Origin: Toxoplasma gondii ME49 | Taxonomy: Eukaryota > Apicomplexa > Conoidasida > Eucoccidiorida > Sarcocystidae | Length of the DNA: 64,000 nt | Assembly: GCF_000006565.2 (NCBI RefSeq) | Contig: NC_031468.1 | Location: 310,001 to 374,000 of the forward strand | Direction: 5' to 3' | Part shown: positions 3,374-64,000 of the stretch, piece by piece | Position numbering within the stretch: position 1 is the stretch's first letter | Layout of the letters: every line of letters begins with the position of its first letter | Notes under the pieces: model-generated | What the model was told of the DNA's origin: nothing | What the model saw: the letters and a program-made list of their open reading frames with translations, nothing else | Databases searched by the model: none | Translations under genes and position numbers: made by a program

Positions 3374-15013
<11,640 letters not shown>

Positions 15014-21969: not shown

Positions 21970-23371
21970 ATGGAGGGGAACACTGAGGCCAAAACGCCCA
22001 ACGTGCTGGGGCCCTCTCATATTGCTCTGTCGCCACGGCAGGCCAGGTGGAAGACCGTGCCACTTTCATCTTCAGAACATGTACCCAGAAGCCGTATTTC
22101 TCGAAGGACCTCAGTTTCGACATTTGGCCACCTCTCGGTTACGGTCACCGTGACCAATCGTGCTTGCCAATTCCTGGAACCTCAGAGCAGGATTCCAGGC
22201 GTCGACTCAGCAGCATTCTTCGCCGGGGTCCTGCGGCAGCAATTGAAGACTGGCAATATAGCCGGCCGCAGGCTCATCCTTCTCACTTGCTTTTTCCTTT
22301 GGTTCGGATGTAATGGCGTCTTCCAAGAATATAGCAGAACAGGCAGTCCTGGAAGTCGTCTGAACAACAGTCAGCCCAGCCACAGTATCCAGAATCATTC
22401 TTGTACTGTGGATAAGGAGGCTGTTGCGTTGCTGTTCAAAGCGAGGGAATCTGAACGTTTAGGAGGTTGTCCGTTCGATTTTAGCAGCGCGAAGTGCCCG
22501 AGAACATGTTCTACAGCAGGTCCAGGAGACACTTCTTTACTAGCTGGACTGCTGCGGTTCTTCACTTTTCAGAACTTGTATCAAATTGTGCCCAGAGGCC
22601 TGGACTGTATTCGCTTGTTTTACGCAAAAACAGTGACTTCTTCAGCTGTCTACAGCATCAAGAGATATCATACTGGGAATTTCACGGCTTTCGTACCGTT
22701 TGCTTTGCTCGCCACAGCTGAGAATGTAGCAACGTTGACTGGCACAACGATTCCGAGCGAGGCAAACACCACGCAAGGATTGCCACCTCGTCATCCCTCG
22801 CTGAAACAGGACAGTCCCGATTGGCTTGGGGACGATGCTTCTTTTAGCGTGCTGAATGGGAATGACACTTCTACCAACGACACCAGAAGCGGCCACAGGT
22901 ACATTGCCTATTCTCCTGCCGAGAGATTACCTGCTTCAGCACTTGCGGAGGAGACACGTTCGAAGAACATAGATGACGCAAAAAGCCCAGATACCGAACG
23001 CGTGCCAGTGTACGAGGTACGCTCAGCGTCTCCCTCTGAGAGGCCTACCAAGGTAAACGGTGGAGAGGAATCAGCGCGTAAATTGCAGAAGGGAAATTTG
23101 CATCACCATAGGGCCTTCCCCAGGAATGCGAAACAGCTTCAGTTTACCACCGACAGGGTTAGGCACATCGTGCTTACGGGAAGTCTACGCCCGTCGTACG
23201 TCAAAGGCTCAGCTATTGATGTCACGGCAGACGTCACTCAGGCAGGAGAACTCGACCTTGGGTTTGACGGCGACGTCTTCTTTAGCCTTTATTTGAAGAA
23301 AGAAGGACCGCTCGGTGCAGCGACCCAGCCAATTCCTCAGTCTCCAACGTATCGAGCTCGCGCAGAGAAAG
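21970..23371 (+). other. Mosaic gene exon 1: N terminus with buried signal anchor
   Basis: A 1402-bp exon, 467 residues plus one base, donor GTACGC. Residues ~101-118 (RLILLTCFFLWFGCNGVF) are the only strong hydrophobic segment and follow ~100 polar residues. Apicomplexan secreted proteins often have such recessed signal sequences; a type II anchor is the alternative. Several NxS/T sequons follow (around residues 134-310), consistent with a lumenal chain. From ~390 the sequence becomes repeat-like (QLQFTTDRVRHIVLTGSLRP), the first Ig-like unit, which continues into the next exon. The region between the hydrophobic segment and ~390 is unrecognised. Confidence 0.7.
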
Positions 23372-26300
23372 GTACGCTGGTAGAGACTATGCCATCTCCA
23401 TCCCACCACCACCGACGTCCCCCCATCACGCACACAACGAACCACATCCTGTCAATTTGGTAGTCCTTGCCTGTAAAACAAACTATTCAGTCTCTACTCA
23501 GCGTAGCGAGAAGCTACGTAAGATGCTGCCCTGCACTCGGCTATGTTAGACAGTGCTTGAGGCTTGTCGGTCTTTCTTCCATGCGCAACCAACACGGGGA
23601 ATGAGGACGCTCTCGTAGCAACAGTAGCTGAATGCAGTAGCCGGGGAGGCCCTAAACCCATCTCATGCACTGGAGTGGCGGCGGTTTCATTGTATCGAGA
23701 ACCGTTGTGCGAACTCAGGTTCAAGAAAGGTGGCTTCGTGTATATAGTGATAAAACTCAGTTTGGCGACACATAAGCATGAAGGAACGATCGTTTGGTTA
23801 GGCGCACGATTTACTCAAACCATGACGGCACCAGACTCAGGCTCTTGGGTTTAAAGGGGGTGGTTGCCGTTTGATGATCATGGAGGCCTTACGAAGGCAG
23901 GCGTTGTTTCTTGTCAAGACCATCGAATACGGAAGTCTTGTTCTTGTTGTCGTGAGACAGCACTATGTTCTGAAACGCCTACTGACATGTACTTGTTCTC
24001 TAGGCGGTGTATTACTGAGAAACATATCGTATATGCGCCAGTAAATTGGAGGCAGGTAGTTTTAGCGGGATGAACACGTGCACTTAAAAAAACGCCGACC
24101 ATTACATTAAAGCATAGAATCATCACCCCCTCAGTTCGTTCCCTTTTGACATGGTGAGTCCCATCCAGAGGGCGATTTTTGTCGGTCGTGAGGCAATTGC
24201 ATGGCCTGCCCCCTCCGGCTTGACCTCAACATGGCTTTCGTCCTATTGAGTATGACATGGCAGCAGCCGGAAGCAAACAAGTTTCACGCGCATACCTACC
24301 ACTGGATCGAGCACTGGGTTCACCACGGTGTACACGTCGCGGTGGAACGGTTGAACCTGTGCCATCCAGTTCAGGGCTCCCGAAATACTCGGCACGCTCG
24401 AGATTAAGATGCTTTTCAGCAGGTGCCTCGTTCCTCGCTTGTGGCTGTGTTTTCGGTTCTTTTGTAATGTAACAGGTATCGCAGTTGCACGGCTTGTTCT
24501 CGAAACTGCGGGAGAGGTGGCTGTCAGGATTTACTGTGGCAGCTGCGTTTCGACTATTACCCACTTTTTCGCTGTTACTGAGTTGACTGCTAGGAGACTT
24601 GTTGTCAGTCGACAGCCCTCTCCTAGTGTCGCCGGCGTCCCTCTGCCTGTCCAGCCTGTGGTCACCGTAGTACAGGCGGATGGCTCGCCTGCTCGTGGAC
24701 GAGTTGTTCTCGTGGCAACGCTTCTTGTCCGTGGTATACAGCCCGAACTGAAAGGTACGGGCACGTCCGAGGGGTAGTATATTATATCTGAAAATCCCCA
24801 AACTCCCACTGAGCTTCAGGGTCACTTACCAGAAGAAAGCAGATCGAGAAGCGAATTTGTTCAGCAGTGGTATCACTAGTGCGCCAGGAAATTATATAGT
24901 ACCGGCAGGTATTGCAATGCTAGAGCATTATAAAGTTGAACGAAAAACGACGGCTACTGCGACAATCGCTTGATACATATCGCAGACAAAACCTGCTGCT
25001 GCGGTGACCGTGCCCATCTTCGAAGAACTAGAGAGTCTCCTTAGCCCTGACACAGCATAGACCTAAAGCCAGCCGGGACATATTGGGGACGACTATCCTA
25101 GTGCGTCCGCGTGTGTGGATCTCCTAACAATACGATTGTCAACCCGTGTCGAGAAGATCGTTCACCGAACGTAATCAATTTCAGAAGGCATGAAAGGTAC
25201 CCTTGATTGCCATCCGCTTACCGTTGCCCTCCTGTGACTGGCATCGGGACACCGTTCACGCTCATTCTGGAGTGGCAGCGTAGCGAGTACCGGAGCTGAA
25301 CAGCGGTTACGTAAAAATGCCAAAGGGAATAAACATCAAGAAAGACGAGCGATTCGCTTCTGCGCACGGATTGCAGTTTGCCCTGCGTTTCACATCTTGT
25401 GCTTGGGCTCAGCGCATGCACTGCTAGGAACAAAGACCATTGAGACGACCGAAGATGGTGTTGGCGTATTCGAGGACTTGGCTGTGTCTCTCGTTGGCGA
25501 CGGGTTCTTTCTCGGGTTTGCCTTAGCTGAGCCATACTCTTCATTCCCTCCCACCTTCACTTGGCCGTTCGCGATTGAGCACGGACCAGCTTCTGGCCTG
25601 CGGTTTGCTATTGAGCCGCCTGCTGAATTTTTGCCAGGTGAACAATTTTCTGTGTCGATCGACATTGTTGACGCGTGGGGGAATAGCGTGTCTGGCACCG
25701 TGGAGGACACAGACGGCAACCCAGCAGAGATTACGCTTGGTCTCGCCGGGACCAGTTCCAGCTCAACGTCGCTCCGTGGCGTGCTCGCGCGCGAAGCAAC
25801 AGGAGGACCTCTGCTGTTCGACAGTCTCGCAGTAACTGGCATTTTAAAAGGAGATCTGCAGCTTGAGGTGAGTACGCAGTCGAACGCTTCACCCTGTTTG
25901 GTCCGATGAGCGAACTGTTGAGCCGATTCACTGCCATGCTGCCGGGTGAGGACACGACAGACACTTTCGTGTCGCGGGTGTTATGGTTTGATTCGGTCAG
26001 AGTGCTCCCGCGAATAAACGAAACTTAGACAAAAGGATGTCTGCGCCGTCAGCCGATGATGTACATTAGGGTTTCCTTATCAACGATCGCACCGTAGGCG
26101 CGCGGGCGTAAAGTGGGATATGAGAATTTAACTTTGATTGCTGGAATGCTTCTTACTTTACTGCTCAAGACCAATAAAATTGTTCGGTGTGTTTTGCGTT
26201 CACATATGCATGACTCAACTTGAATAAGCAGAGACATTACAGTACCATTAGCTACTAGTCTACCAAAGATATGCATTGCTTGTGGAATAGCACTTGTTTG

Positions 26301-29300
26301 CTTGGAGGCTGTAGTCAATGACAATGCTTGTCATGCAGAATACTCTATGATAAACTGTCCGTCTTTCGGGCCTTCGTTCGGTTCACGTTTCGTCGCGGCC
26401 GCACGCGTCAGAAATGCCGTAGACTGTGCACGACGGTTGCGTCCGACAGTTCCCATGCTGTAGGTCGGATCTGGGATGTGCCAGAGAATTCCCGACACGA
26501 TGGCCACTTTGTAGTTCCCAGCGATGATGTGTTTGTGTCCCGACACCGGTTTGCTGTCGGGAATGTTACGCCTGACAGCTCTTGATGCTTCTTGCACCTG
26601 CAGGCTTCCTGCGTTAAATGCAAGCTCGTTCCAGTGCAATCACGAATCTTCAAGATATCTTTGACAAATATTGCACGCATTTCAAAATGCCCACTTCTCT
26701 ACGAAGATGCAGCAGTCTCTACAGAGGTTCCATCACCATCTTCCGTCCAAGGCACGTATGGTTTCAGTTTTAACACTTGCGTGTACCGAATAACGCTGCT
26801 TGCCGACAAAATGCAATTGCTTGCTCCAAAGCATGACGTCACCGTTACTATTGCGGGCGTTGAATTGAAAGATCCTGTACCCGGTTTACAAGGAGAAATG
26901 CTGCCGGAGGAACGAATTCGCGTTACGCCAAGGACGCTGACGTTCTCTCCATCGAACTACCATATTCCTCAGGACGTTCTTCTCGAGGTGAGGGCGCGGC
27001 GCCGGAGAGCGCAGATGTCGTGCTTATGCCACTTGATACATCATGATAAACTGTTTGAAGGTGTCATGCATTTTAGACTGCCTTTAGTGACATCCTAAGA
27101 ACATTCCCTCTGAGTCTGAGGGAGAGCAACGATTCCAGGTGCTAGACGTGTGAGACGTAACGCAGTACTCGGACAGACTCTCGACCGCCGGATCCTTTAG
27201 GCTGACAGTGACTGCTCTCTTTATTAGTGGTGCGTTAATGCCTATGAGCGTGTCAAGGAAAATAGATCTACATAATGAATCAGGATGCACCATAGCGGAA
27301 CCTGGCGACTGAAGAAGGAAATTCTGGCGGTTTCCTAGGTTCCCTGTCCCATACAGACTTTTTCACGGGCGTCACGAGACGTGCCATTTCGTTTGCGGCT
27401 ACATAGTCACATATGCCTATTGTTGCCACAGCTGTGTTGAAACTCAAGCAACAACCTGTACGTGTTAACGTAGCAGTACATTCAGGTGATCACGTTTCCC
27501 CATTCTCTTCAAAAATGGAAAGCACAAACACATTCTTCATGACGAGCATTCCACTGTGTAACTGACCAGGTTGTAGACGACAACGAAATCGTCGCCTCCA
27601 TCGAACTGACAAACATTGCAGACGAGCTCTTTGTGGGCGACTATATCATTCACCACACGATGAGTTCGGCCGATACCATATGGAACGATGGAAATGTAAA
27701 ATGGCAAATCGATAGCGGCGAGGCCCCCGAAGGCACAGAGCACTTCATTGACTTCGTGGAAGGTGGCAGCGAAGCCGCTAACGAGGACCGAGCTTTCATT
27801 ACCGAAGGAAATCTCATGGTTCGCGTTGTCGACGATGACAAGCGCCGTGTGTTCACTAAAGTTCCTTCCACCATTCGTATGGAAGGTGAACAGGTTAGCT
27901 GCTACAGTTTGTATGGGTTCTAACGGCAGAATAAGTGCTCAAGCCACATAAGTTTTCACCATGAGAATCGAAGGGCTATCCAGAACAAAGGGATGTACTC
28001 TAGTTTTCGACTGCCTTGAATGGCCAGCGTCAGTCGTCCGCCTGGACTGTGTGCACCTGAGTGGTTAGTCTTGCGACCACTGCCAGAGTTACGAAGTTTA
28101 AAAATGGTTCTCCGTCAGTCTCATCCCCAAAAACGGCAAAGCTGAGGTTTCATTTTTCAGTGTCCGGTGCTGTGAACGAGACGCAGTTGGATTGCCTGTC
28201 GCTCAAGATCCGGTGCTGCGTACAAGCGAACCATGTCAGCGTCCGATACTGAGACGGGCCCCCGGTAGCGAATCAGAACCATCCGAGGGCTCTCTGGAGA
28301 GGCCAAACCGCATAACGCACTGCGCGGTGAAACCCTGAACACGTCTTCCAACTAGAAATTATTTATTCGTAACACAAAGGTTCTAATACAGGATCTGGAC
28401 AAGCCACTGTGAGAGCGTTCTCGGAGTGGCTAAAGGCGGTAGCTTAAAGAGACCTGCGAATAACATTTTTCAATGTGTTACAGGGAGCCTAGCTTCAGTT
28501 ATTGTCTGATTTGCGTTGCATGACTGGTGCCTTAAATTATGATTCTTATTAATGGGGGCACAGTTCCCGTAGTAACCAATCCAGTGCTCTGCGTTGGGCA
28601 TGAGTGTGCTTCCCGTGAAATACTCAGCTGACGGATGAACGCAGGCAGGAAGATGAAAACTGTGTAAGATGCAGCCTTGTTGTTTTCAGATGTCCTATAC
28701 GGTGTGGCTTTCGATGCCACCCTCACCGGGGACGAATGTGACAGTGAAAATGGAGTCAGCGCTGGGAAGTCGGTCGGTGGTCCTGGACCCTGAAGTGCTG
28801 GTCTTCACGCGTGACGACTGGCAAACGCCTAGAAATGTGTCCGTGAACACCGAAGACGACAACATAGCTCTACCACCGGTAAGGCCGAACCCACCCTGAC
28901 GCACTGGACTACCCAGGAGTACAGAGAAACTTTACCTTGAGCAAAGAGTTGTTGCTATCTATACATAATGCAGTTTAAATGAGTCTTCAGAAGTTCTACG
29001 GCGAGGGAGATACCACCCGTTACAAGCAATAGTTCCATGCATTTGAGACACTTTCCACCAAGGTGGAAAGCCGCTGCTTGCTATACGAGAGGAGCAAACA
29101 AATTTCCAGCCTTTCTACTCTATGCAGACATACGTTCACTGCAGTGGTGGATTGCGTTGTCTCTACGCATGATGCTAAGGATGGTCTGGCGCCAGTGCAT
29201 AAAAAGGGGTATGTGGAAGCAAATGAGATTGATTTACGCTTTCATTTACGCTTTCGGAGCTCGTGTCCCTCTCCAGGAGAAGAACAGAAAGACGCTAACA

Positions 29301-32300
29301 TGGAACCAGATCGAAGTGATACAGATTGCCCAGACGGTGATGAGCGATGATAACTTCGTCATGGCTTCCACAAGCATCGGAATCGCTGTTCGCGACAATG
29401 ACAGAGCTGGAGTGAGTAGCAGCTAGCTCTGAGCTCTGCCGATGTTGCCCTCTGATCGTTCACATCTTTTTGGTTGTGGCGTATTCAAACGGCACCCTGG
29501 ACACCGAAAGGCACGAACAGCCCGGCTAGGCAGACCCTGGCACGCTGTCGGCCATTGCCGTACCCGTCAGACTGAGACATACACACTTATGCGGTTCCGC
29601 CACGCGGTCGCTGAAGCCTCGAGTTTACCCGGTTACCGTTGTGCTAAAGAGGTCGCCTATAGTGCCGCAGGGCCAGGGTAGACGCTCCGCCTGAGTATGC
29701 CTCTGTGTCTCTTTCAAGCAGCAATGGAGCTCTGGCTTCAGTGCTCGGTTCACTGAACCAGATGCGTATTCAACATCATTCGAAAGACAGACACGGTCGA
29801 ATTGAAGTGCCGCAGTTCCATACGGCAGACTTCTCCACATTCTGTCTGCAAACGTATCGTAGAGCGTGTAGTCGGCTTTTGCTTTTTCATGGCTAAAGGC
29901 TTTCGCTTGCTTTGCGGACTCACATACGAGTGACTGCCTTTCTGCTGATTATGTCTGCAGTTCGAGTTCGAAGATACGGCTGTGGTGCCAGAGGGCTCTG
30001 CAGCTTCAGCATCATTTCGGCTTCGCTCGCAGCCTGTTGGCCCTGTGACGATTCGGGTTCAGTGCGATGGGGCTCACATAAGAGCCGACTTCGAAGACCA
30101 CGAATCGCTGTTGATTCAGCCCTTGGACTGGAATACCACTCAGTCTGTCACCCTGCACGCTGACTTTTCGGAAGGTGTGACATCCGCTGGAGCCCAGCGT
30201 AAATTATGTGATGCCTCAGTTATTGCCCTTCACCCATTTGGATGCACTCTTTGCTATTTTTCTCCTGGGCAACGCTCCCTTAGTTATATGTGCGTGCGTG
30301 CGGGACGCAACTGTTCCAGCACAGGCAACATGCTCGCTGACTCCTGTGCGTATATCCTTTTCTTCGGGACACCACAGAGCTGCTTAAAGCGTACTGTTGC
30401 ACGTGATGGCAGGCTGTTCCACACTCTGTATCATGCAGGTGTACGTTATCGATCCGCACAGATTTGCAGAGGATCCGGCATGTGTGCTTCAGTGGAGAGC
30501 GCGCGTCATCCCTACAGAGCCTCTGAGCGGGATGTTACAGCGCTGTACAGTGTTTGTACGGAGATAGGGGTCCGACGTACTTTGCACATCCTGGAGATAC
30601 TCATGCCACTATTGGCGTTTCTGGATCTTACGTCGATGTTTCCAGGGTCTTCTATTTCCGTGTGTCAAAAAATGCGTCCCACCCGATGAACGAAGAAAGG
30701 CGCCACCTGAGAGGCACCTCTCAGCTTCGAGGGGAGCGTGCGGTCTGTCTTACAGCGCCAAAACTTGCAGGACTCGAAACAACGTGTGTTTGACTGGCGG
30801 TTTTGAAGTGTTTGTGCTCTGTTGCTTCCAGCGACTCTTGGTCCTGAGTACAAGGCGTTCTGTAAAGTCATCGCAGAATCCGCCGACGAAAATTACAACT
30901 CAGGTGCGTGAGCGCGAAGTGCCGGGAACTAAGGGAACACCTGAACGTTGATAGGGCTTCAAGAATGATGATGGAACAATACAAGCCTCTTCGTTCGCTT
31001 CTCGCATACAACCATAACAGCCAAATGTGGGTCGCAACCGCCCACGCAGTGGTAAAAATAAAATGCATGTCGCAGTGGTGACGTGGCTTCACAAAGATTC
31101 GGGCGGGATGTTGGACTGGTGCGTTTGTCCTCAGTGTCATGGGAAGAGAACAACAAAGAGTTACCCGTCTACGGCTTTACCGTGGTCATCTACCGCCCCG
31201 GTCTCACCAGCGGCGACAAAATGACGGCCACCGTCTGCCCGGTTGGCCAAAGCCTGCAGTACGTTCAACGACAGTCCATCTGCTGGGATTCTGAACGGGT
31301 GAAAAAACGAAAAAACTCAAATCGAATAAAAAGATACGTTATGGTACTTGGGATACTGAATATGACTCCAGTTAAGAGATACAGACGGGTGTGTGCGACG
31401 TCTAGAAAAGCGTTTGAGGCCATGTCTCTGGTGACACTCAGACGCTACATACATCAACCATGCAGAACTGGAGCTCAGCATTTTAGCCTTCATGATTCCA
31501 CTTGCGTGGAGTCAGATTTCGGCGCAGATATGACAAGCCTAGTAACGTGTCTTTCGCCACTGCACAGGAGGGCACACAACTGACTTTGGATGGCTCAACG
31601 AGCGCGAGAGCATGAAGTGTTCATCAGCCAGGCGCTGAACAAAGACGAGGCGTTCACAGAACTAGGGCTGTGTTCTGTGTGGGTATTCCCTGTGCTCGAA
31701 AGGCATTAGGTTTTCATATAAATCAACTCTAGAGATTGACTGGTACATTAGCTGAACTTGGGCTTGTCCCCGTTCCTCAGCAATACTGTTTACTTCCCTG
31801 AACGCTCTCGCGGATCCTTTTCTCTCCAATTGTGCGGGCGAGGAGGGGAGGAGAGTTGAGGCCGGATTCTGGACACCCAGATATATATACATATATATAG
31901 CTCTTGATACTTCACCAAGATCTAAAATAATTCATCTAGCTGATAAATTAGCGAATCTCTACAGTTTGTGCGTTTCCGGGGAAGGTGGGGTGGCAATTTG
32001 CCAAAGGAGGCGGTACCTTTTGCCCTGGCTTGCTGTTAACGCTTGGGCGCTATGCCAACAACGGCGAGACAGAACAGAGGTTCACCATACGCCTGAAACA
32101 GCACCGGATGCTCGAGTGAGTCGAACACTCAGCACTGGAAACTCAAGACCTGGAGGGGGGTATAGGGTAATGCAGGACAGGGAGGCAGAAGAGAAGACAC
32201 CTCTAACCAAGCTTTGCCGAGAAGCACTGCCCTTGGTGTTTTGTGGACTTTGGCCGTCTGTTTGGGTTCCCTTTCCTCGCTTGCATTTAGGAAATCTACC

Positions 32301-35300
32301 GTTGGAGATGTCGATAAGTGGGAATGTCGGCCGTGCCCTCGGGGCCATCGGTGTCCACATCCGCTGCTCAAACCGGAGAAGTGCGGAGATGGCAAACATC
32401 CGATGTCTCGCAATGGTTGTCCTGATCTCTGCCCAGCGGGGGGTGAGCGTGTCCCTGCGAAAACAGTTGCAACAAGTGGAATACAGAAATGGTCCTCCTA
32501 GCAATTCTGAATCCAGGGCATCCGGAGTTTCACGCCTCCTGAAGCAAAGAAAACTAAACTGAGAAGGAACAGGAATCAATCCCATATGCAACGTTGAATT
32601 TGGCTTGTTCTAGCACACTCGAACAAATGCACAACTTCTTCCCGATCAAATTTCGAGTTTTTGTTGCACGTTTCGGCTGCGACAGACGGAAGGCGACGTG
32701 GCTCGGCGGACTGAAGAAGTAGGCCTCCCAGGCAGAATGCGTTTCGCTGGTCAGAAATCGTATTTTGTGGTGGACTTATTGCCCGTGTCTTTTTAGAGGT
32801 CATCTGCGGAATGCATATACCGCATAGAGACCACTGGACGTTCGAGGCCTGTGATCCTGGCTACTTCTTCTATCCCAAACTTGGTGGATCTTACTGTCTC
32901 CCCTGCCCGGCGGGAAACTACTGCCCGAAGTTGTTCGTCATGCCCACACCATGCCCTCGGGGCACATACTGTCCACAGCAATCCATACAGCCCAAACCGT
33001 GTACAGCTGGGTTCTACTGCGCAAGGCCCTGGCTTCCACCGGAGGTGAGCACCAGTCTAAAGCGCGTCAAATGCTTCAGTGGTTATCGGTGATATCTATC
33101 GTCATGCCGAGAGCTGGCAGCTACAGTGAGGAGCACATTACTATTAAGATATTGTATGTATACATGTGTACATGTGTGTGTCTAAATACGAAAGGGTGGA
33201 TCTCGAAAAACACGAGTAACCCCTCCTGATTTTTAATAGTTTATTAAAAACTTTATTACATGGTAGTTTATGTAATAAATAAATCTAATTAAATAAAATT
33301 TTTTCAGTATTCAAAAAAATAGTTTTTTTTATGTTCCAGATAATACCAGAGTTAAAAAGAATTTCTGTGTAGAAAATATAACTGTAAATTCATCTTTAAT
33401 AAATACAACAGAGATGCCGAATTTCTAAGGAGACTTCATTTCTGTGATGCCGACAGACTGATCTGCCTGAGTTCCGGTTCCGCTGACAGGAACACACAAC
33501 AGCAGGAGTTTATTGGCGTATAACGTTGCGGAATATCTAGCTCTGTCGCTATCGCCGTATTTCTCTCTGTTTTTCGAATGGCATAGGAAAATGAGGCAGT
33601 GCAATATCTGAGTAAACGAAGTCATGTCGAAATTTGATACTATTCTTGTGCTTTGTTTTGTTTGCTTTCCAGCCTTGTCCGTATGGCATGATGAGTGGCC
33701 CAGGAGCTGACCGCTGTACGCCTTGTCCCGAAGGTTACAGCTGCCCGGATGCACCTTTGATGCGCACTCAAAAATGCCCAGACAAGACGCGATCATTCCT
33801 TGTAAGTGTTGCCACACGATACCACATCCGATACAGCTGAGAGCGGCATCTCTCTCAGTGCTCTTGAAACCTGGGTTCTTTCACTAGAAATAACGTCGTG
33901 CAAATGTCCCAGTTTGCGGCGTACTGCAAGCAACACCAACATACAAGCATTTGGGATGTTCTAATGATCTGTCATTTCGAGGCAGTAGTAGCGGACTCCA
34001 ATAAGTCCGCACACACTCAGGCGCCAACAAGCACACAAAGAGGCGATCATTCTGGGATCTGATTTTTCACATTGTGCAGTAGAGGGAGAAGTGAATCTTT
34101 CAGAGCCCCTCATCCACGCGAAAGGACTCTTTCAGAGCGACAGAGCCACTCATTTGGCTAGTGCAAGCATGTAAAATACTTGAAAGCCGAACAATCCGAG
34201 TTTGACTTAAAGGTAGATCTCGATTTCATTGTGGTACAGGTATCTTATGACTGCCACGATTGAGCCTAAATGCAGCGAGTTTTTCAGATGGCGATATGGC
34301 TACGCTCTTCGCTCCGCTTTGGGGATACAGATTTCCATTATATATCCGCTTAGACGTATGTTCTTACGCAAGACAACAATAACCGTAGAGGGACTTGATA
34401 TGATGCCACCTTTGTCTGAGATCAGACGAAAAGCCCTACCGATGAGCAACCTTCCTGTTCGCTGATTCCGTGGCGCTTGTCAGAGAAACCCGAAGTGCCT
34501 CAGGTGTGATGACAGAGGAGATACGTACTGCTCACACAGCGCACATGTGAACATCTGCTATTCGCCGGAGGAGATCCCGGACCCTGATCGTTCACGTTGT
34601 ATTCCTTGCCCTGCCGGTACGGATATAGCTTCTCCACGGATGTTGCTTTCTGAACCATACACTTTATACCACTATGCTCAATACACTTTACAAAGGGGGT
34701 GATGAAAAACATAATAGAATTTGGTTTTAGTAAACGAAGACCAATGGCGTTCAGTTGAACGCGAGGCCGAGTGGAGAGTTGTACGGATCCAGCCCTCCCT
34801 TCTCTTATCACTGCGGAGAAGGCAACAGGGCCAAGGCATGCCGATGGCGGACGATGAGCTGTCTTTGGTGAACACGTGTGACACATAGGTGGAGAGAGTG
34901 AAGGAAGGGTATTTTCACGCGCAGTATGTCATACCGTTGTTCAGTGGAACTTGAAACACCGTAGCATGTCGACACCCACCAGCGAGACAGTCTAACAGGG
35001 GAAACGAATCGCTACAGAACAGGGCGGTGTGTCTCTCACTCGAGTCAGTTAGAGACCGATCACCTCATCTGTTTCTCATAAATAACGCATTTGTATCTGG
35101 AGTGATTGCCGTTTTGCAGGTCACGAGTGCATTCTAGGCAAAGCCGTACCTTGCCCAGCCGGATTCTACGCGGAAGAAGCAGGGGGCATCTGCCGCCCTT
35201 GTGAGGCGGGGCACCTCTGTGCCGAGCGGGAGCCTGGTCCGAATACCGGTCGATACGTGAACGGACCGTAAGAGACATGCAGCAACAACACTCGATCCTT

Positions 35301-36891
35301 TGACACCCTGCGTCGGTGCTCAGCTGAGAGACCCATTGGAGGAAATTTTTCTCGAGAGGTTTCTTGACTGCCTGGGCAGTCCACTTGGCGCTGCTCTTGC
35401 ATATGCTGTGGTGAAAGCAGAGCGTAGTGGCGTCGAGGAGAAATGAGGATACCCTTTGCTTTTTCGGGCAGCCCAGCGTAGTCGTTCGCAGATCTGGCGA
35501 ATGGTAACTTCAAGGAAGATTCAAAAGCCGTTTTCAGCTAGGATGCATATCATGCGGTGTTCGGATTTGCTGCCTTCTAGTTCGCAGAGACTGTAAGCGC
35601 GTTTTTCTCTTCTGTCAGGTTTTACAAAGAACCCGGCGTGATCGAAGTCAAGGTTTGCCCTCCTGGAACGTTCTCCTGGGGCATCGCGTTCACCTCTCAT
35701 GACGGCTGCCAGCCTTGCGGTGCAGGGGTGTACTGTCCCTACAATACCAACGAGCTCCCGACAATATGTGCAGCAAATGAATATTGCCCAGAAGGCACTT
35801 TGAGGCCCCTCAAGTCGCCTCCTTGTAAGCACAGAAAGATTATGTCTCATTTCCATTATCACGACGATTCGACATTTGGGCACACATTCAATTAACATCC
35901 GCCGCGCAAATAGCTTACACTCACGTAAACCACTGGGAGCCGATTGATGGTCAGCGTCTCGTAGACATGCGAGCAAGGCTTTCTAGAGGAGCCAGGAAGG
36001 CCTTTTGGTGCCCAAGATGTTCATGGATCGTCTTCAGAACATGTTCAACATGTTCACACCCGCCACCTTTCAGTTTCTTTGCTCTCACATTTGGTTCTTC
36101 CTACCCTTGAACAACACCACATGCTGGGCGACCGCAAGCCTTGGCGCCACCTTAGGTGGCCTCTTTCGCGTGTCGATGTTTTCTCGTGGCTAAGGCGGAG
36201 TGCATCGGCGCCAGTTTCATCCACCCCGTAGAACCCAAATGAGTTAATCTGTTCCCTGATTGTCTCTTTTACGAGACTTTTCCCCTCGTGCGTCGTGGTC
36301 CCAGTGTCCACAGCGCTTCGGCACTGCCAGGCAACCGCTTGCAGAATAGTGACCGTTGAGGTAGATTGAGAGAGACTTTCAAGTGGAGTCCTGGAACTGC
36401 CGGCGGTTGAGAGCCTTTGCGTGGGGAGAAAGGTGAGACACTTGTGGCAACTATGGGTCACCAATGACGAAATTGAGTTCTGTTGCTTTGCTTTTTGAAC
36501 TCAGTGACAGAAGGCTACACGCTGTCTAACGGGGACAGGACAACCGGTTTGGCGCACTTCGGAGCCTTTCGATATTGCAAATTCGGCCAAACAAACCTGT
36601 CACTAGGCGGCACCTGCACGCAGTGCCCCCGTGGGCAAATCTGTCGGATTGGATCGGCCCCGATCAACTGTCCACCTGGAACTTATGCACCTGGAGGCCG
36701 TGAGTGTCCGAATGTGTTGCAGTGGCTCCGACCAAAGATTACCTTTTTGTAGTCCATCGCGATTTAGATGGGCCAACTCACGGCACATGCGTGAAAAAAG
36801 TAGATGCACGCATATATATACATATATTATATCCACACAAAGAGGCCACTAGCGTGACATGACACGGTAAAATTTTCCACTCACATGCACG

Positions 36892-36922
<31 letters not shown>

Positions 36923-51900: not shown

Positions 51901-54900
51901 AGGTGCAAAAGAGAGATACATGTTTCCTTCCTCGTAGGCTCCCGTGTTATGTGGACAACAAAACACAATTTTCAAACAATTTCTGCGTTCTGTTGGCGCT
52001 GTTTTACGCTGCATCCCTGCATTACACCTTAGAGGCGGGAGATCGGAGAAAGAATGCCTAGACTGCCCAGCCGGTTTCTATTGCAGTGGGACAGGCAAAG
52101 AGGAACCGACAGGAACCTGTGATCCAGGCAAGTACACCGCTGTTCAGAGAGGCACGGAATGCGGAGGGAACACTTGTGAGTGCGGAAATGGAGTCCGGAC
52201 TATATCAGCGAGAGTGCGTAGCCTTGATAGAGAATACGTAACAGCCAAGGAAACCGAGACTATGCCAGGTGCGCGTGAGGAGAGCTCAATCGCTTCATCT
52301 ACAACGAGACCGTCCAGCGAACAATCAGACTAAATGTATGTAGAAAACCAATTAGACAAGACATATACTTGTTTCCTCTTCTAAAAAATAATGTCTTACA
52401 CTCACGGTTCCCGTGCGCGTCTCCGCACAAGAAACGTTTCGCCTGAGCACTTCCCGTTCTTCGTATGCAGTTGAGTTCCTGCCTTTTGGAGAGAGAAGGT
52501 CTGTTTGTGTCCGGAGTCATTTCTCCCCCACGTCAACACTGAATGGTTGCGGCATCGCAGGGGCACTCCTACCCTTCACTACTGAACACTTTCTCCGATG
52601 TATGTTTCAAACATGTCTGTTTCAAACAGGTTACTTTTGTGCGAAGGGAGCAAACTCCGCTCAACACGCTGCATGCCCTGGAGGCCACTACTGCCCTCGG
52701 GGAGCAGTGGAAGCTATTCCCTGCCCAGCTGGTACTGTGCAGCCTGATTCAGGGCAGGAGTCCTGTCTTCCATGCAGCACAGGTACGACGTAGAGGAGGG
52801 TCGACAGGTGTGCTGAGAAGCGCAAACGCTAGACAAGGAGATTATACGTGGAGGAAACATCTATTAGCAGCCCAGGACACACCACAGGTCACAAGAGCTT
52901 GCACGTGGCTGTGCGACGTTACAGTCTCGTGGGTGCCTGATGTGTGTCTCTTGTTCGTTCTGTCGCTACACATGTGTACTAGATGCTTATATATATACAT
53001 ACATGCGAGGCGGGCAGGTGTGGAGGTGAACAATCGAACAGATATATGGGGACCCATAGCTGATCGCATGCACATCTATTCCCACGGGTTGGCTTGGGGA
53101 AATGTCTGCATGTACGCGGCTTCCCACGTGTTGGATGCCTGGGATGCGTTATTGTTTACAGCCACTGTGGAGCTGTATCACCAACAACAAATATATTTTG
53201 AACCCACTGCATTAAGCGTCAGCTTTTTATTGCCGTTTTGTTTAGCCCCAGATAAGACGCTTGTCACGGAGGTTGTTTTCTTAGTCGGCGTGAGATCCGA
53301 ACAAGCATCTGGCCAAACTGATGTCAACTTCTTCTCCATATTGTGCGTGCCTCCAGGCAACTACTGTGAATTTGGCGCCATGGAAGGAAAACCTTGTCCG
53401 GCAGGGTATTACTGCCCGTCTGCGTCCGGAACGGGTACATCTTTCCCTTGTCCAATTGGAACTTTTTCAGCTCAGGAAGGGGTTACCAGTGCAGACACCT
53501 GTACCAAGTGCTTGGCCGGCCATTTCTGCGATGTTCCAGGCCTAACAAAGCCTGTCGGAAAATGCCTTCCAGGTATGACAGCAGCTTTTAACCAGCGTTT
53601 GACATCTGTTTCAATAAATGTCTTCTGCATGGATGGTGGAAGTGATTCCAACAATAAAAAACTGTCTCACCTTTGATACCTTTTTAAACGCGTAAGATCA
53701 CTAGCATGGCACGGCCTTACGCATGCTCCTGTCACTAATCATCCATGGCAACTCTGATTCATGGCTGTTGTGTGCGTTTTTCAACTATGTATCCCCTGTA
53801 CATATTTGAAGTTGTATGCGGACCTGAAAGCAATAAGGTAATCCTAGGAGAGGCTTCCGGAGATAGCGAAGCTCCTTCAAGACCTTTGTTTATAATTTCT
53901 ACGGGGGTATTGCTTTCCTGTGAAAGTCACAGGGCTGAGTCAACCTATGCTATTCTCATACCCTGCCAGACTGGTATCGCCTGTGTAGCGGCTGCATTCG
54001 CCGACATTCGATTCTACTCCTTTCGTCCTTCAGGGTATTACTGCCCTGTAGGGACGGGTCTCCGATATCCCAAGACATTTTGTCCCCCTGGGTCCTATTG
54101 CCCGAGAGGGTCTTCCCAACCCACCGATTGCCCAGCAAACTACTACTGTGACACTTCCCGACTGTCGGAGCCCACGGCCGCATGTTCACCGGGGTTCATT
54201 TGCGGCGCCCGATCTACTACGCCGACTCCAACGCAAGCGATCAGCGGCAGTGCCTGCTCCGAGAATCTACAAGGCTACAAGTGTCCAGCAGGTTACTACT
54301 GTCCACCAGGTACTGTTGGAGGACGTTTTTGCACGGAACCAAGGAAGGCGGGCTAGATAAAGATACAATTTTATCTCTGAGTGGCAGCGGTTTTTAACAG
54401 CTAGCACCTGTGTTCCCCATATCCGAAGTGTTTTTCGGCACGTGGTTCATTTAGGGTTGCGATACACTCCTAGTTGTAACCATCACACTCTGAAAAAGTC
54501 TCTTGTTCCCACACCCTATGGGCGTACATGTTTTTGGACTGTGTTTGCTGAGACTCAGTGCAACCGCTGGTGGCGTGCATGGGCCAACGGTGACAGACGC
54601 AAATATCTTCGATACTTACACGACTTTATAGTGACAGCGAAGTGCCACGCTGCGCACACCTTGAAGCCTGACTGTTGTAACAGTGTGCATGTCAAGTTAC
54701 AGTCGCTGACTTCAGACGCGGTGTCACACCACAAGTGCTTATGCTCCGACTCATTCTCGCCACGCCACGGAATCTCGTTTGTTACCTAGCCAGACGAGTT
54801 GGGATTTTGCTGCTCTGCTCTTCTGTTCTTGCCTTCTGCTCCTGTGCCCCTGCATCCTTATTTCAGTCTTGACTCGCCTCGTGGCGGGTGTCGGTTACCC

Positions 54901-57900
54901 CGGCAAATCGGCAGAAGGAGTAGATGCGAGCAAGGCCTTCTTAAATGGTCCCCAAGATGCTGTACGTACCAGCAACGGCGACATCTTCATTGCTGACACA
55001 GGGAACCAACGAGTTGCACGACTCGATGCCGTCACGGGTGAGTCTTCTAAAGTGGAATACAAGCGTGCATTATAGGACAGGGATGCAAGTGAAGTATAGA
55101 CTGAGGACAACCCAGAAGGGCCTTTGCTCTTGTCAGAGAAAGGGATGTTCAGTTCACTTCGAAGGGTAAAGAGCAGGATGAACCCCAAAATGACACGCAT
55201 GCAAGAAGGTCGGACTGGCAGTCGAGCAAGCATGTGTGCGGCGTAAATGTGATCACGGGGTTTGACTACATTGGAAGACATTCCACATAGCCGCTCCTAC
55301 TTTCCAGTTGAACAGCATGGACAGGTCTCGTCCGACACTGCCACGCATGCTTGCGTTTCCCAGAAGAATGTTCCAATGCGCGCTGTCGACTGAGTTGATA
55401 GCCGAGTGGGACTTCTTGTGTGTACGAGGACCTGGATGTTGGTGGAAGGAGGTCCTATTCACTACGCAGGCCTGGAGACCTCGGATCAGAAGAGGGTGGC
55501 AGCGATGTCTTATGGTTTGTGTCGCCATTTCCTTCTCAGGGGAAGTAACAACCTACATAGGCCAGGGATTGCGTCAAGGAGATTCGAGCTGGATTCTAAC
55601 TGCTAAACCAACAAGACTTGCACTGTCGCCCAACCAAGAAACGTTGTACATATTATATTCCGGTAAGAGAGCCCTACTGCTGGGATCCCAAAAACGCTTG
55701 ACTCGGCCGGGACGCTTCTCTTGAGATATTTCCAGCGACAGCGTGCGAGACTGATGGAACCAAATTAGTTCGAACAACTACGATCGTGGTCTGGCGAACG
55801 GAAACACTAGCCACGCCCCGGCAGGCGGAAACTGGTTACTTCATCTCCAACTCTTCGAATGCTTGTGAAGTTGTCTATTTGCCCTTCCAGAAGCTAAAGA
55901 CCGGCATGCTTCGTAGAACATTTATGGTTTTCCTTGGCTCTTTGTCCAGCAGAAGCTGCCTCGTTCACTGTAGGTGCGGTGGCCTACAGAAGGAAGGCCT
56001 GGCCTGTCCCTCTGCACAACCAGAGCAACTCGTGACCCCATTTGGCACTGCAAAAGCCCCGGACTAGTGCTGTCATGGTCTCTTCCACTTGCGCTACTCT
56101 GCACAAGACGTAGCTACTGATTCTCTCACAGATGTCGCTTCCATCATTCTTACACTTGGCACACCTGCTTCCGCTGCATATCCCAGAAGCGCTCCTGATG
56201 TGTTTGTGTATGGGTAGATGTTGCAAGGGTGGTCCAACATACGCTCTCGAACGCCAAGACGACGGAGGTCGTAGACGCTAGGGGCTGCAGTTCCCCTCAG
56301 GGGTTTGCTGTGGATCCTACTGGGTCTGCCTTATACGTTGCTGACACGGGGAATAATCGGATCAGGAAAGTCCCGGTGGCCCCGCCAAGCAGAGCAACAG
56401 ATCTCTTCGGTCAGGCCCAGACAGGTGAGGTTGGGAGCAGGGAAGTACGCAGAAAGTGAGAGGCCTCGACAAGGTGGGGTTTCCTGTATCTCTCTTTTAT
56501 TCACATACTTATGTTTCTGTGAGCGAATACACCCGTTTGTGCAAGACTGCGCACACGCACATACGTAGGACCTGCGTTACTGGCCAGTGATATACTTCAA
56601 GGACGAGAAAAGAGCGTCAGGCTGGTTGTCGAGCTCGCGAACGCAAACACTGAATGGCAGTCACTTCACACGAATTCGGACATTTGACTACAGCGGTCAC
56701 GGCGAATCAACAACGACAAGGAATTCGAGACGTGACAGTGATTTACATCCAGCCACATGTATAATATGAGAAGTTACAAATGAATTACAAATAAATGCGC
56801 CTTCGGTATTCACCAGCGCGTTTTGTTTCATATTTTTATGCCCCCGTAGCGTGGTGTTGTAGGCGAACTGTGGGAGATACACACTGTGGAGCCAAGGTAC
56901 CGGAAGTTAGACAACGGGGAAGCATAGTCCAACAGACACGCCGCGGCATACATGAGAAGGAAGTGAAAAGCTCTGGACTCGCAAACTTCTCAGTCACTCC
57001 AACCAGTCGTCCACAAAGGACATTCGTCTGTCCCTTGTGTGGACACACCAGACACCGCCGACAACCCACCCGATCAGGGGCCGAAGCTGGACAGGCCTTC
57101 AGCCGTCTGGGTTAGTTCGAATGGCGTCGTTTATATCGCAGACGCAGGAAACGGAAGGGTAAGTGCCACAAGCGTTCGGACTGCGAGGGGTTCTCCGGCT
57201 CTAAACGACTGGGGTCTAGGCAACGATCTGCAACGGAATGCAGCAAATGCGCAATAGTCCCAGTGTGCGCTTCGGCTTTCTTTTTTCGACAGCTCCAATC
57301 TAATGTTGCAGCACATTGCCAGCAGACGCGAATGAGCCACATCCTTGCGAGCGAAACAGACCTATATAAACATGTTTTCTTAGAGACTTGAAAGACCTCC
57401 GTGGCCGTGTGTGTCACCGAAAACAGGCAGAGTGTGCCAAGGAGAGGCACATACCATTTGAACTTTTTGGTTCGCTTCCGATTTCTTAATGCTGACAGCA
57501 CGGGGGCCCCTGATGCAGTTCACATACAGCTTCGCTTTCGTTCTTCCCTTGTCATCGCTAATCCCACGAGCAACGCGCCCTTGGAGCTAACACCGGTTCT
57601 CCTTAACCTCATCGACCTGTCTATCTATATTCGGTCTTCGGAGTTTCTGAAATTCGCTGTAAACCTCAGATTCGAAGGTTTCAGCAAGCTGCCGGACCGC
57701 AGAGTGGTGCACAGCTGACGACAATCGTTGGAGGGCCCGTGGCGGGCGTCAAACTGGAATCTCCTGTTGCCGTCACAGGCTTTGAAGCTGGTGGAGTAAG
57801 TTGCGCTTCGCTATCCTGTGTACGCGGATGCGCTCCTACGTCTAAGCCCTTTTTCTTGCTCCTCCCCATCTGGGCAAATACTTTGCGTTGAAGCTGGGAT

Positions 57901-60900
57901 ACACAGCAAGGAATGCAGCAAAGCACAACGGAGACCTATGCTGTGAGCATCCGAGGCAAAGTCCGCATGTTTGACTACCCTTGCCATTACCGCATTTGTG
58001 CGAATGCCTCCAGAAAGTGTTCCTCGTCGCCTACGACGCTGGCGTTCAAATGTGAGTCGATGGTCGCACAGGCACACATACTGGTGTGTTGCATTGCAGC
58101 AGAGAGACTGTATACGTGTAAACTGACTCCCTGTAAATTTGCCTGCTTACTTCAGTCTGAAGACAACCGCCCGCTTTTCGTGTCTCCAGTATCTGAACAT
58201 CGCCAGTAACAGCGACGGTGAAATAGCGAGTTTCTCCGAGTTTCGTAATCAACTGTTTATCTTCCTCTCTCAGAGTTTCTATAAACTTCCCAGATAAACA
58301 TGGGCTTTAGGGCTCCTGACATCCACTCGCGGTCTTCAGCATGGGTGCCGTTTCGTGGCTGCTTACAAGAATTCGAGTTCCTTCACTGCTGTATCTTTGT
58401 AACTGCACTTGGCCCTACACCCGTTTTCGAATTCGTCATACCCTGTTTCTTGAAGAAGTCGGGTATTCCTAAAGTGCACTCCGAAAACTTTTCCTTCGCT
58501 CCGGCGTTCCAGGGTCTTGAAGATTGACACTTCCGAGTCCACGCCAACGAAGGTGGATTTGTTTGACGCCTCGCGTGCTGGAAATGGTCACGTTGACTCC
58601 CAAATCCAATCACGATTCGGCAGCGTGCAAATGGAAACACCCGTACGCAAGTTGGTAGTGTCGAACCGTCAACTGCATGTTCATCTGTGTCTGCTCAAAC
58701 CTGTTCCCCAGCAGTAACAACCCAACTGAAGTCAACGCTAATAGGGTCACTGTCTAACTGTTTTGGCATTTGTCAGTCTCTATATGAATGTACATAGCTG
58801 TATAAAATCAGTTTTTTTGTCTCTCCATCTGTCTGTCTACGGATCCTTTCACTGGTCTGTGTTCTCGATTCAAACCGCGACACGCTCGAGGTATCCATCT
58901 GATCATTCAGTATGTCACTTCGTCTTTGCTTTCGTCGGATTCACATTCGTATCCTATTCATCCCGTGAGCTCTGTAGGTCACGTGTCCATCCACCTGCTT
59001 GTATCACAGTCGTTGAAGCCCGCGCTGTCTGTACGCTACCACACAAGCCACCATTTCATCGCCTATACGTTTGCGTATATACATATATATATATATATCA
59101 ATGCGTCTACCAACTTGACTGTTTCCTTTGTTTCTCCACTTAACCACTCTGGGGTCCTTCCCGCGTACACTCTTATCGGTCGCAGGTCCGGGTATCCGTG
59201 CGTGGTCCGTTGTCCGCATGGATATTCACCTGTGAGGATGTGAATGGGATGGGACTAAGCAACAGCTGATTTTTCTTCGCATCTGTATGCCTGCCCGTGT
59301 TGACTACCGACTTCACTGTCCTGTCTTTTGCCTCGAACACTGTCAATGCCCACACTCACAAGCAACCTATGCAGTCCGAGCCTGCCGGTAGCCCAGAGGC
59401 CATATGAATGCTTCGCTTTCCAGTTCATTCATGCATGGCCCCGTCCTGTTACCCTACCTGTTCCCGTGTCCCGCAGACAGGAGACACTGTAGCTGTACTT
59501 TTTGGTGATCCAGAACGTCACCGCATTCGTCGTATATTCCTCAACCCCGACTACGAAGAGCCCGTCGGCAAGAAGGTTCCCTGCCCCGCAGGGACCTACC
59601 TGGACTACGATGGCGCCTATGCCGAAAGCCACTGCAAGGAGTGCCCCGCCGGGAAATATTGCCGGGGGACAGGACTGACGCAACCAACTGGTGACTGCGC
59701 TGGCGGGTTTACTTGCGATGCGAGGTCGGAGCAGCCTGAAGGAACACCTTGCCCGGTCGGCCACTTTTGTCCTGCTTCGTCGGGTGCGTCGGCGAGCCGC
59801 TGAGAGAGAGAAAGTCGACTAAGCGAATACACGCGGTACAACGCATCTGCCATCGGATCTGTCAAACACAGAGTCTTGGGTCTCTGCTTTCCACAGCTCA
59901 GAACCGTAGCAGATGGAAGCTGCGCTCGGACACGGCTCTGAGTCGCGCACTCGTCCCGCTGCTCTGCCTACTACCACCGAATACGCGTCAAGGTCACTTC
60001 GTGCAGGGATAGGAAAGACACTCATGAGACACGAGCACGTAGAAGCAGAACTGACTAAGAAGAAGAGTGGCAGAAAAGGAAAAAGCAAGCCTTTGAATAG
60101 GGCATCTTATTCACGTAACAAAGGCACTCAATGGAGTTTTGCTGCGGTGTTGCCGCAAGCAGATATATGAATTTGAGTCAAAAGTCAAACGAGCGTATTG
60201 GTGAAGATTCAGACGGAAAAGATCGTGGCACTCCCCATCGACTCTGCGTTCACCTTCTACTAGTCCTTTTTGCATACACGACTGTAGACTGTATTGATGC
60301 AAATTGATGTGTCAACATATGCATCTGAGTTGTTTAGGGTGCGGATCGTACCTGAAGTGGATTGGGGTCACCAGGGGTTCAAACGAACTTGCTTCAGAAG
60401 CGCGGTTTCCCCCTTCTCGCTGCCACTCGGCTGTCTGCATGCCGCTGTAGGACTAGGGACTGTACGAGAAGCTCTCGTTTCTCGAACTGTGACTCCCTAA
60501 GTATTCCTAGTCGTTTTTTGCAGTTTTTGTATGAATATGCAGGCGCTTCAGATACGCAGCGGAATTTAGCCTTCAGAAAATCTGTGTTCACGCCCTTCGC
60601 CTACGGCCGGTCCGCTGCATCGGCTGTAACCGATGGTGATTTCTCAGAAGCTTCTTCGTGGCCTCTCCCGAGTCTTAGCTCCAGGATATATCCTTTCCGT
60701 CCATCTGCATCACGTGCTGCACTGCCTGGAGAGGACATTTTCGTCATTGATGTCGTGGAAGAATCGGAAATCAAGAGCGTCGAGCTTCACACGGGTCGCC
60801 CCTACGATCTAGCAGTAGGGAAAAGCTGATAGCAGTCGGGACAGAAGTCGGCCTCTGAAGTTACTTGCTTCATCTGAAGTTCTTGTTAATGTCGGATCCT

Positions 60901-63900
60901 AGATGTGCTTGCCAACCGCCCCAGTAGTGACAAACTGCCTATGAACGGCATCTGACTTGTCTGTAAACGTATGAGGGAGGGCAAAGACTTAGGAAACGCA
61001 GTGCCTCTACATCCGGCAGCTTCGTCTTCACCGCATGCACTTGTTCTGCGAATGCAATTTAGTGTGGCAATCAAGGCAGGCGAAGTCGATGCATGCACAT
61101 GAGCTCGAAACGTATCAAATTGCGAGTTCACCACCTCCAATTTATCTGCACGCTTCTCTGTTTTGCACGGGGTTTCCTGCGCGCATTCAGGCTGTGGATG
61201 ACGTGTCAGCTTGGTGCTGGGACAAAGAAGCATTGACGTGGAAAGGGATAGAATTTCACGACAAATTGACGGAGCCTGGCATGCTTCGGCTTGTTCTCAC
61301 CAACACAGCCAAATCTTCCAAGATAGCCCTTCAAGTTTCTGGAGAGAACGATTCACCGGTGCTGATTCGCGAGGTTGTTCTGCGGGCAGACTCCACCCAA
61401 ACAGGCACGCAGAAACACATACTTCAATTATGGGCAATGTGGAAAAACTTAAGGCGTGCGTGTGATGGTTGACGGACTCTCAAGTACATGCGGACCACTG
61501 CATGCGTGGAAGACGAACCCGAACTCGCTGAACCAGCAAGCGAATTGCTGTGACATGCCACGCATGTGATAGCTTACCAAAACATTATCTCGTCAACCGG
61601 CGCTGTTGTTCTTTGAATCGGCTTACACAAGGCGGTGTGTTTTCACTTTTTTCCTGCAGCTTTCCTGCTTCCCTCGATTGCCTTCTCTTCTACGTTCAGG
61701 GTTCGTGACCTCAGTCGCACAGATTCTGCAGTCTCAGTTCGGTTTGAGCAGCAGGTGCCTACGGTTCTTTCCACCTGGTCCTATGGTTATCCGAGCCTCT
61801 CCTATTTGCCGAGTCGCACCTTCACGCTGTATCGGTATCTCAACGACCGCTGTCTGATGCGTCTGCTGACTTCCTGTCGCTTTTCATTTTCTCTGTCCGT
61901 GGCTGTTCCGTTCAGAACTCCCGTCGAAGGTTGCACAGCCTTGCCCGCCTGGAACGTACCAAGATGAGCAAAGGCAGACTGCATGCAAGCAGTGCCCAGC
62001 AGGCCAGTTCTGTTCTTCGTTCAAAACAGAGACTCCAACGCCCTGCCCAGAGGGTCACTACTGCCCACCAGGAACGGTCTCTCCCCATTTATTTCCGTGT
62101 CCTCTCGGCACGTTCTCCAATAAACAGGGTGTGGCCCGAGTCGACGAGTGCCAGCCTTGTCCTGCAGGCAGCTACTGCGCGTCTAGGGGTTTGACGCGCC
62201 CAACGGGCCTTTGCGATGCGGTACGGTCGAACACAGATGTCGAAACAGGTCTAGGGATACAGGAACTCCTCATATACTCTATAAAGGCCTCAGAGATATT
62301 GTGCATACACATGTCTGTTCTTCCACGCTCAGATGGAGTTGCGTTGACTGGGAAAACGCCCACATCCGTGTAAATGCGCAGTCATTTTCAGGCATCCCAG
62401 AATCAGATCGAAAACAGCGGTGTCTACGCCGATGTTCAAGTCTTGCGTTCCAAACATGCACTGGATTAGCGGTAAAGATGAATGTTTACATATGTATCCT
62501 CGGGCAGACTCATGAACCATGGACACACACACATGGATCACACTGTCCGGGATTTTCTTGTTTCGTTCCACAGATGTGTGTATGCGTTCGTCTCTCGGTC
62601 TGGACTCGTCTGTGTGTAGACTAGCGTGTAGCCTTGTGACAGACACAGACACACTCGTCATGTTGTCCTGCCACCCCCATGCTTGTAGAAGCGATATCGA
62701 AGAAACAATGAATGTGGATGGAAGATTCTGGGTTTATTCCTCTTTCATTTCCAGGGCCATTTGTGCACTGGGAAGTCTTGGCTAGCAGCTCCGACCGTCA
62801 CCTCTGTCAATCCCGACATCGTCGTGATGGAAGAAGGGCAACCAAGGCTTTTCTCAGGTTTCGGGATGCTCTGTCCAGTGGGTTTCTACTGCCTAGAGGG
62901 AGCACAGACACCGTCCGAATGCCCTGCGTACGTCGAATAAAAACCCACACTTCTGTTTTGAGAACTTCCAATGTGATCGGAGCCTTTAGTTTACCTGGGG
63001 GTAGCAGTCCATCTGATGGGCGTGTCTTCCCGCGCGTCTTTCTGCTTCTGTGAAGCATAAGAGGATTTTGGGGGCGCTGCATGACTACAACGATCACGTC
63101 CTCTCGTACATACATACGCGCTCGAGTCAGCGCTCGTAGATGACCAGATGCACAAGCGTGCACATCCACTCGATTTTGGTTCTCTTTGTCTTGCGAGTAT
63201 CCCCAGAAGCCACCGTTGGCCTGAAGCAGTCTGTGCGCTTCTTTTGTTGCCTGTTTGCTTACACAGAGGAAGACAGACGGCAGCAGCAGGAGCGATGAGA
63301 GAAGAGGAATGTGTTCCTTGCGAGCCGGGCTTCTACTGCCCGGAACCCGGCGTTTCGTTGCCTTGCGATGCGGGATACGTTTGCCTAGAGGGAGCGACAA
63401 CGGCAACGCCTGCAGATACGACGACAGGAAAGCAATGTGACGCAGGTTTTTACTGTCCACAAGGCTCCTTCAGGATGCTTGTAAGCCAACAAAGTGGACA
63501 AATGATGTAAGGGTATATAGGAGTCCCCCGTACCCGTCTTGGACAGTTTAACCCATCATTCGCGTCCGGTTCTGTCCGACTTTTCAGGCATGCATACACA
63601 CGTGTCGGACAGTGTCGTATTGATTCTGGGGTCCCTTTTTCACCTTGAAGCGTTTCGGGCTCTGCCACCAACGCATCTTTAGTCGAGGTCGACACTCTCA
63701 GGCTCACCGCCTGTAAAGGAAGATGGTGTCGCCACTGGAGCAGAGTGTGAATTTGGAGATCAGGGAGTTCCTCACTTAGCTGGCTTACGGCATGCTCCAC
63801 ACTTACAGATGAATGCAATCATAGGCAACAAGGTACGCCCAGGTCACGCGGTTCTGCCCGTGATACGTACCCTTCATTTTCTGCCTTCACAGCCCTGTAG

Positions 63901-64000: not shown

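Follow-up and report, generated by a model that had tools for sequence, protein, structure and literature searches.

The 64,000-nucleotide stretch of Toxoplasma gondii DNA analyzed here (C2:310001-374000, hereafter the window, from a genome assembly of 65.3 Mb in 1,959 contigs) contains the 5' part of a giant gene whose product, with a probability that we put at about 0.78, is a single-pass type I protein of some 6,200 residues that represents, in T. gondii, an ancient family of giant GCC proteins found among eukaryotes. The modelled protein starts with a beta-rich N-terminal part and a GCC array, continues with a PAN-like insert, further GCC modules, an NHL propeller, GCC modules, an insert at a position occupied by a discoidin domain in a relative, and GCC modules again, and ends with a juxtamembrane domain, a single helix and a charged tail. 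The locus is one real gene, and it is larger than in the original prediction, which was made from the letters of the window and envisaged a large extracellular scaffold or adhesin. The very large, modular and, as predicted, mostly extracellular nature of the product agrees with that proposal, but the transmembrane helix and long charged tail, which were missed because both lie beyond the window, argue for a probable single-pass membrane protein instead of a free adhesin.

The curated gene model comprises 92 plus-strand exons at positions 21970-97033 (window numbering), encodes 6171 residues and extends over approximately 75 kb, of which 33 kb lie past the window end. Fifty-seven of its exons touch the window, close to the 58 or so previously proposed. 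The curated chain is free of internal stops and all 91 introns are GT-AG, but neither property constitutes independent support, since the gene finder imposed both. A self-trained gene finder run without homology also returned one plus-strand gene, with 78 exons over 21.5-78 kb, and of the 66 joints that it places between 23.2 and 72.8 kb, 46 are also present in public T. gondii proteins. For the curated model the corresponding figure is 57 of 65, which is not independent because the same public proteins were used in fitting it. Furthermore, nine proteins used as queries, including two from T. gondii itself, produced 2633 matching pieces on the plus strand (a count inflated by GCC repeats, which match many times over) and none on the minus strand. 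The gene finder and this strand asymmetry both uphold the earlier proposal of one long plus-strand gene extending from 21970 to the end of the window. In the curated chain, the first exon and the two discoidin-position exons were placed by hand and several small exons were deleted by hand; the exons of the charged tail are ab initio predictions. Near 100 kb a different gene appears to start, as judged by eye from a TFIIB-like zinc-ribbon stretch.

Public annotation offers another account of the locus, in which several shorter adjacent genes, with products of 2,914 and 2,878 residues, take the place of the giant one. The records concerned are distinct and end inside the locus: P0002/P0003 (2914 residues; from T. 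gondii COUG and GT1; annotated as "GCC2 and GCC3 domain-containing protein") span 23.2-59.8 kb, with the alignment of P0002 beginning only near 23209, and P0001 (2878 residues, recorded as a product of the window) extends over 37.2-72.8 kb, splicing 59783 to 61916 and thereby omitting the discoidin-position insert. These records overlap, however, over 37.2-59.8 kb, P0002/P0003 terminate by read-through of the donor at 59783, and the relatives are annotated as single genes of about 6,000 residues, all of which makes a set of separate genes improbable. The public T. gondii models found for the giant gene are fragments. The protein searches covered 120 of 428, 115 and 88 matches and were confined to proteins of similar length, which means that short public fragments of the gene would not show.

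Within this single gene, the GCC and NHL modules of the original prediction are both corroborated by Pfam (PF07699 and PF01436, respectively). All parts of the gene described here lie on the plus strand. A first cysteine array of PF07699 type spans 26 exons (32291-49908), as delineated by the gene finder and public models; GCC modules identified by PF07699 and the gene finder precede the propeller (51364-54309); and the array resumes at 61916, leaves the window at 64000 and extends to about 72 kb, with 68 GCC-type motifs counted ahead of the juxtamembrane domain. The NHL propeller (54867-59577) is encoded by eight exons (54867-55037, 55540-55662, 56218-56424, 57007-57158, 57670-57795, 58014-58051, 58513-58642 and the 5' part of 59477-59783), is matched by PF01436 in three stretches (2.6e-18) and by TEN_NHL (4.6e-10), and is the sole PF01436 match genome-wide at E up to 0.001. 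The predicted fold of the NHL block of a relative is of low confidence overall (predicted local distance difference test, pLDDT, 53), and the 50 PDB rows shown as matching it are all beta-propeller proteins, none of them a discoidin domain. In exon 59477-59783, the last propeller blade shares a single frame with GCC modules, and relatives read straight through. The propeller-cysteine fusion is hence genuine, as originally stated.

The other four of the six module labels (PAN, discoidin, Ig and Calx-beta) are not confirmed by sequence, with no Pfam match to any of them in the T. gondii giant protein. Exon 1, as modelled, occupies 21970-23371 within an open frame at 21958-23460, its start codon and extent having been chosen and remaining uncertain; it contains a hydrophobic segment, possibly a signal sequence, preceded by a long n-region, and the beta-rich N-terminal part begins thereafter. 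The nine following exons (24476-31258), formerly labelled Ig-like and Calx-beta-like, have no Pfam match, and neither domain was detected by Pfam in N-terminal slices of two Vitrella proteins and one Eimeria protein; neither label is upheld by Pfam. For the two inserts, the PAN and discoidin labels in T. gondii are based on position in relatives. The PAN-like insert (50202-50862, composed of exon 50202-50361 and the start of 50657-50862) has no Pfam match, and none of 97 genome matches to PF00024 falls at this locus, but alignment and visual inspection show the segment kept in place in all eight relatives compared. The insert called discoidin-like (60543-61455, exons 60543-60814 and 61191-61455 of the curated model, absent from P0001) likewise lacks a Pfam match in T. 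gondii, as in E. flavescens, but occupies the position at which PF00754 (F5/8C) is found in Vitrella P0097 (5.2e-9) and, weakly, in Besnoitia P0111 (0.0025). A sequence link between the T. gondii/Eimeria insert and the Vitrella/Besnoitia F5/8C domain was not upheld, as hhalign probabilities for nine pairs (0.11-0.55%) fell within the range of 20 shuffles (0.04-0.97%), with a positive control of Vitrella versus Besnoitia-type F5/8C at 88.6%. The insert of the E. stiedai relative has a beta-rich predicted fold of low confidence.

The membrane-proximal part of the protein lies entirely beyond the window, with a juxtamembrane domain at approximately 71.9-75.4 kb, a transmembrane helix in exon 75117-75485 and a tail reaching 97033. 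The juxtamembrane domain, of about 390 residues, scores 305 bits in the T. gondii model, and is also detected as three pieces (94.5, 78.0 and 64.4 bits) in unspliced T. gondii frames, using a profile built from seven coccidian and Vitrella proteins with T. gondii left out; the scores of those seven follow from its construction. It has no Pfam match in T. gondii, its fold is predicted to be cupredoxin-like with medium confidence, and a sequence search for PDB relatives returned only noelin (E 0.4). A copper site was considered and rejected, since the best histidine column is occupied in 33 of 62 full-length domains and the T. gondii domain has histidine at none of the seven listed columns. Across the same 62 domains, 13 cysteine columns are 100% conserved (rounded) and motifs around YPVY, LxNTN, FDY and GxYVF are largely kept. 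Hydropathy analysis identifies one helix, at residue 4924, at the end of this domain, and the 1229 residues that follow the juxtamembrane domain are 37% E/K/R/Q. A post-helix motif appears alike, by eye, from Bodo to frog and weaker in coccidia and Vitrella, and was not seen by eye in Stylonychia.

Six relatives annotated as single genes are of like length and order: P0059 of E. stiedai (6116 residues), P0063 and P0096 of E. flavescens (5987 and 6036), P0111 of Besnoitia (6014), and P0097 and P0105 of Vitrella (6089 and 6157). The juxtamembrane profile matches five of them over nearly its full length and P0096 over its C-terminal half, and in all six this domain ends in one helix followed by a long charged tail. 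Beyond these six, giant GCC proteins with a match to the profile occur in Stylonychia, Bodo saltans, Chilomastix, Kipferlia (restricted to the C-terminal part of the domain), Bigelowiella, Salpingoeca and Nk52, which we take to be the ichthyosporean Chromosphaera, as well as in oyster, hemichordate, echinoderms and vertebrates. With the frog domain as query, matches were obtained in amphibians, reptiles, birds, fishes, lancelet, echinoderms, Hydra and mammals, including a Peromyscus record named "Predicted gene 9195". Three vertebrate proteins (P0020, P0066 and P0089) are filed as SCO-spondin or zonadhesin(-like) and yet carry the juxtamembrane domain, one helix and a tail. The sharing of the membrane-proximal part by algae, ciliates, flagellates and vertebrates points to an old cell-surface protein, not a parasite novelty. 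The 217 proteins collected came from family-biased searches and include isoforms and close relatives. The giant gene would be a member of a family of giant single-pass GCC proteins that extends across eukaryotes, of which neither an account nor functional data on any member was found in the open literature, including domain-name searches of titles and abstract starts; Gm9195 was found there only as a chromatin-table entry.

The architecture had previously been described as unusual and animal-like, and NHL, F5/8C-type and GCC modules are common in animals, a point in favor of an animal-like gene acquired from a host. The phylogeny of the juxtamembrane domain, based on 38 domains chosen among carriers and rooted only at the midpoint, places the T. 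gondii gene elsewhere: coccidia, Vitrella and P0101 split from the rest (95/99), T. gondii joins Eimeria (98/90), and the animal rows lie apart. Furthermore, the free-living Vitrella has NHL and F5/8C in the same order, and host acquisition is hardly credible. The same order in Eimeria, Besnoitia and Vitrella indicates that this architecture did not come from animals and is not confined to parasites. Besnoitia P0111 clusters with another set of Eimeria proteins (98/93) and is therefore probably a paralogue. Deuterostomes, two hypotrich ciliates, two fornicates and a Bodo set form further groups, while the animal rows do not form a single one, with oyster lying beside Salpingoeca and Nk52. Support is good for 18 of 35 inner branches and weak at several forks, with five branches open; long branches lead to Salpingoeca, INCI and TOXO_B, the last a sequence assembled from four pieces.

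Two further loci of the T. gondii genome are related to the giant gene. A second giant GCC gene, at C2:100001-130000, has juxtamembrane-domain pieces, no NHL match and a long tree branch, and a third relative, at C12:4710001-4730000 (4.71-4.73 Mb), combines a PAN match with pieces of NHL and discoidin type and is close, by eye, to Besnoitia BESB_054230. Upstream of the giant gene, plus-strand open frames of the window carry a partial protein-kinase match (5319-5750; PF07714 3.6e-5, PF00069 3.3e-4), MORN repeats (12251-12880; PF02493, 4.5e-14) and a weak ALOG_dom match below the Pfam cut-off (14369-14770; 0.0019), and a tandem repeat of period 45 (2.3 copies) is found at 527-627.

The identity of the locus can be approached through anchors on C2. 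A PAN cluster at 532 kb fits MIC4, and a PF01066 anchor for TGME49_207710 found no match on C2 and is neutral in this respect. The only tubulin-family match on C2 lies at 148.6 kb (E 1e-4, under the family cut-off), and TGME49_207600 is designated "tubulin/FtsZ" in Tables 3 and 4 of PMC4177681; a PIG-P match at 497 kb anchors TGME49_207980, named in the same tabulated material (PMC4177681). The giant gene is the only PF07699 locus between the anchors at 148 and 497 kb, PF07699 having at least 17 matches in the genome, and TGME49_207875 ("GCC2 and GCC3 domain-containing protein") is therefore probably, by position, the giant gene or part of it. In searches of the open literature, neighboring and strain identifiers gave no paper and TGME49_207875 was found named only in PMC4177681, whose tables record it in chronic, not acute, mouse infection, Table 4 giving a value of 17 with an asterisk that denotes a mean acute-infection value of 0.

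As read from its sequence, the giant protein would be located and oriented at the cell surface, bind ligands and be coupled to the skeleton. The disulphide-rich GCC array would form a stalk holding the NHL propeller and the inserts outward, these being the likely partner-binding modules; the conserved juxtamembrane domain, which may have a cupredoxin-like fold and lacks a conserved copper site, would lie on the membrane; and the charged, probably coiled-coil tail would be coupled to the membrane skeleton. An ancient, skeleton-tied receptor-scaffold role of this kind can be put forward tentatively, at clearly less than even odds. That the family derives from a receptor of the eukaryote common ancestor kept in mammals, with an extracellular juxtamembrane domain that is conserved, an intracellular motif that is conserved in part and the NHL propeller block added in coccidia and chromerids, and provides an outside-to-skeleton link, possibly at the flagellar membrane, falls not far short of an even chance.

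A reading that overlaps with the receptor-scaffold role is that of a flagellar-membrane or gamete protein, in which a ciliary role was retained and is used in the flagellated microgamete of T. gondii. Those organisms with the juxtamembrane domain that could be identified by name (ciliates, Bodo, Chilomastix, Kipferlia, Bigelowiella, Salpingoeca, Vitrella, coccidia and animals) are ciliated or flagellated at some stage, a pattern drawn without a search of lineages lacking flagella. Gametes, on the other hand, are not expected in chronic mouse infection. If the gene is TGME49_207875, it has been reported in that condition (PMC4177681), and the terms GCC, ephrin and NHL do not occur in the main text of a paper on E. 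tenella gametocytes (PMC4340605). A flagellar or gamete role is, on this evidence, unlikely, if still worth weighing. Should membership in the giant GCC family hold, T. gondii, Vitrella, Bodo, ciliates and vertebrates would share a giant surface protein whose public records, among those examined, are split, unnamed or filed under other names, and a broken T. gondii gene model would be corrected. Such membership further suggests that, in the T. gondii lineage, a surface architecture with a propeller is older than parasitism, and both T. gondii and mouse are experimentally usable for probing the role of the family.

Among known systems, CRMPA and CRMPB of T. gondii are likewise very large GCC-containing membrane proteins. 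The juxtamembrane profile found no match in the C9 (20 kb) and C11 (30 kb) stretches that, by chromosome, we take to be CRMPA and CRMPB. The GCC-rich composition, very large size and shared genome would suit a third protein of CRMP type that works alongside CRMPA/B in rhoptry discharge, and CRMPs are reported as essential for invasion and as having nine helices and an EGF-TM core (PMC9815656), but the giant gene model has one helix by hydropathy, and this assignment is very improbable. With teneurin and other NHL propellers, the giant protein has NHL repeats in common, the propeller alone being shared so far as tested. "Predicted gene 9195" and its vertebrate relatives share the juxtamembrane domain, the single helix and the tail, and a GCC array was counted in the relatives from frog, bird and fish; in those vertebrate rows whose match is full-length, however, 171-677 residues follow the juxtamembrane domain as opposed to 1229 in T. 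gondii, and the vertebrates among the best 30 of 120 proteins show NHL-discoidin profile matches in the GCC stretch only. Besnoitia besnoiti BESB_054230 (6014 residues) shares the layout and the NHL propeller, with PAN assigned by precomputed Pfam, but is probably a paralogue and has a weak F5/8C match (0.0025). Closer in the juxtamembrane tree, where they are sister to T. gondii, E. stiedai Esti_002354 (6116 residues) and E. flavescens Efla_004403 (5987 residues) have the same layout at about 32% identity, the discoidin-place insert of E. flavescens being, as in T. gondii, without a Pfam match. Vitrella brassicaformis P0097 and P0105, finally, reproduce the full order, including the PAN-like insert, NHL propeller, discoidin-place insert, juxtamembrane domain, one helix and charged tail, and differ in the clear F5/8C domain of P0097 (5.2e-9), in an overall identity of about 31% and in belonging to a free-living alga.
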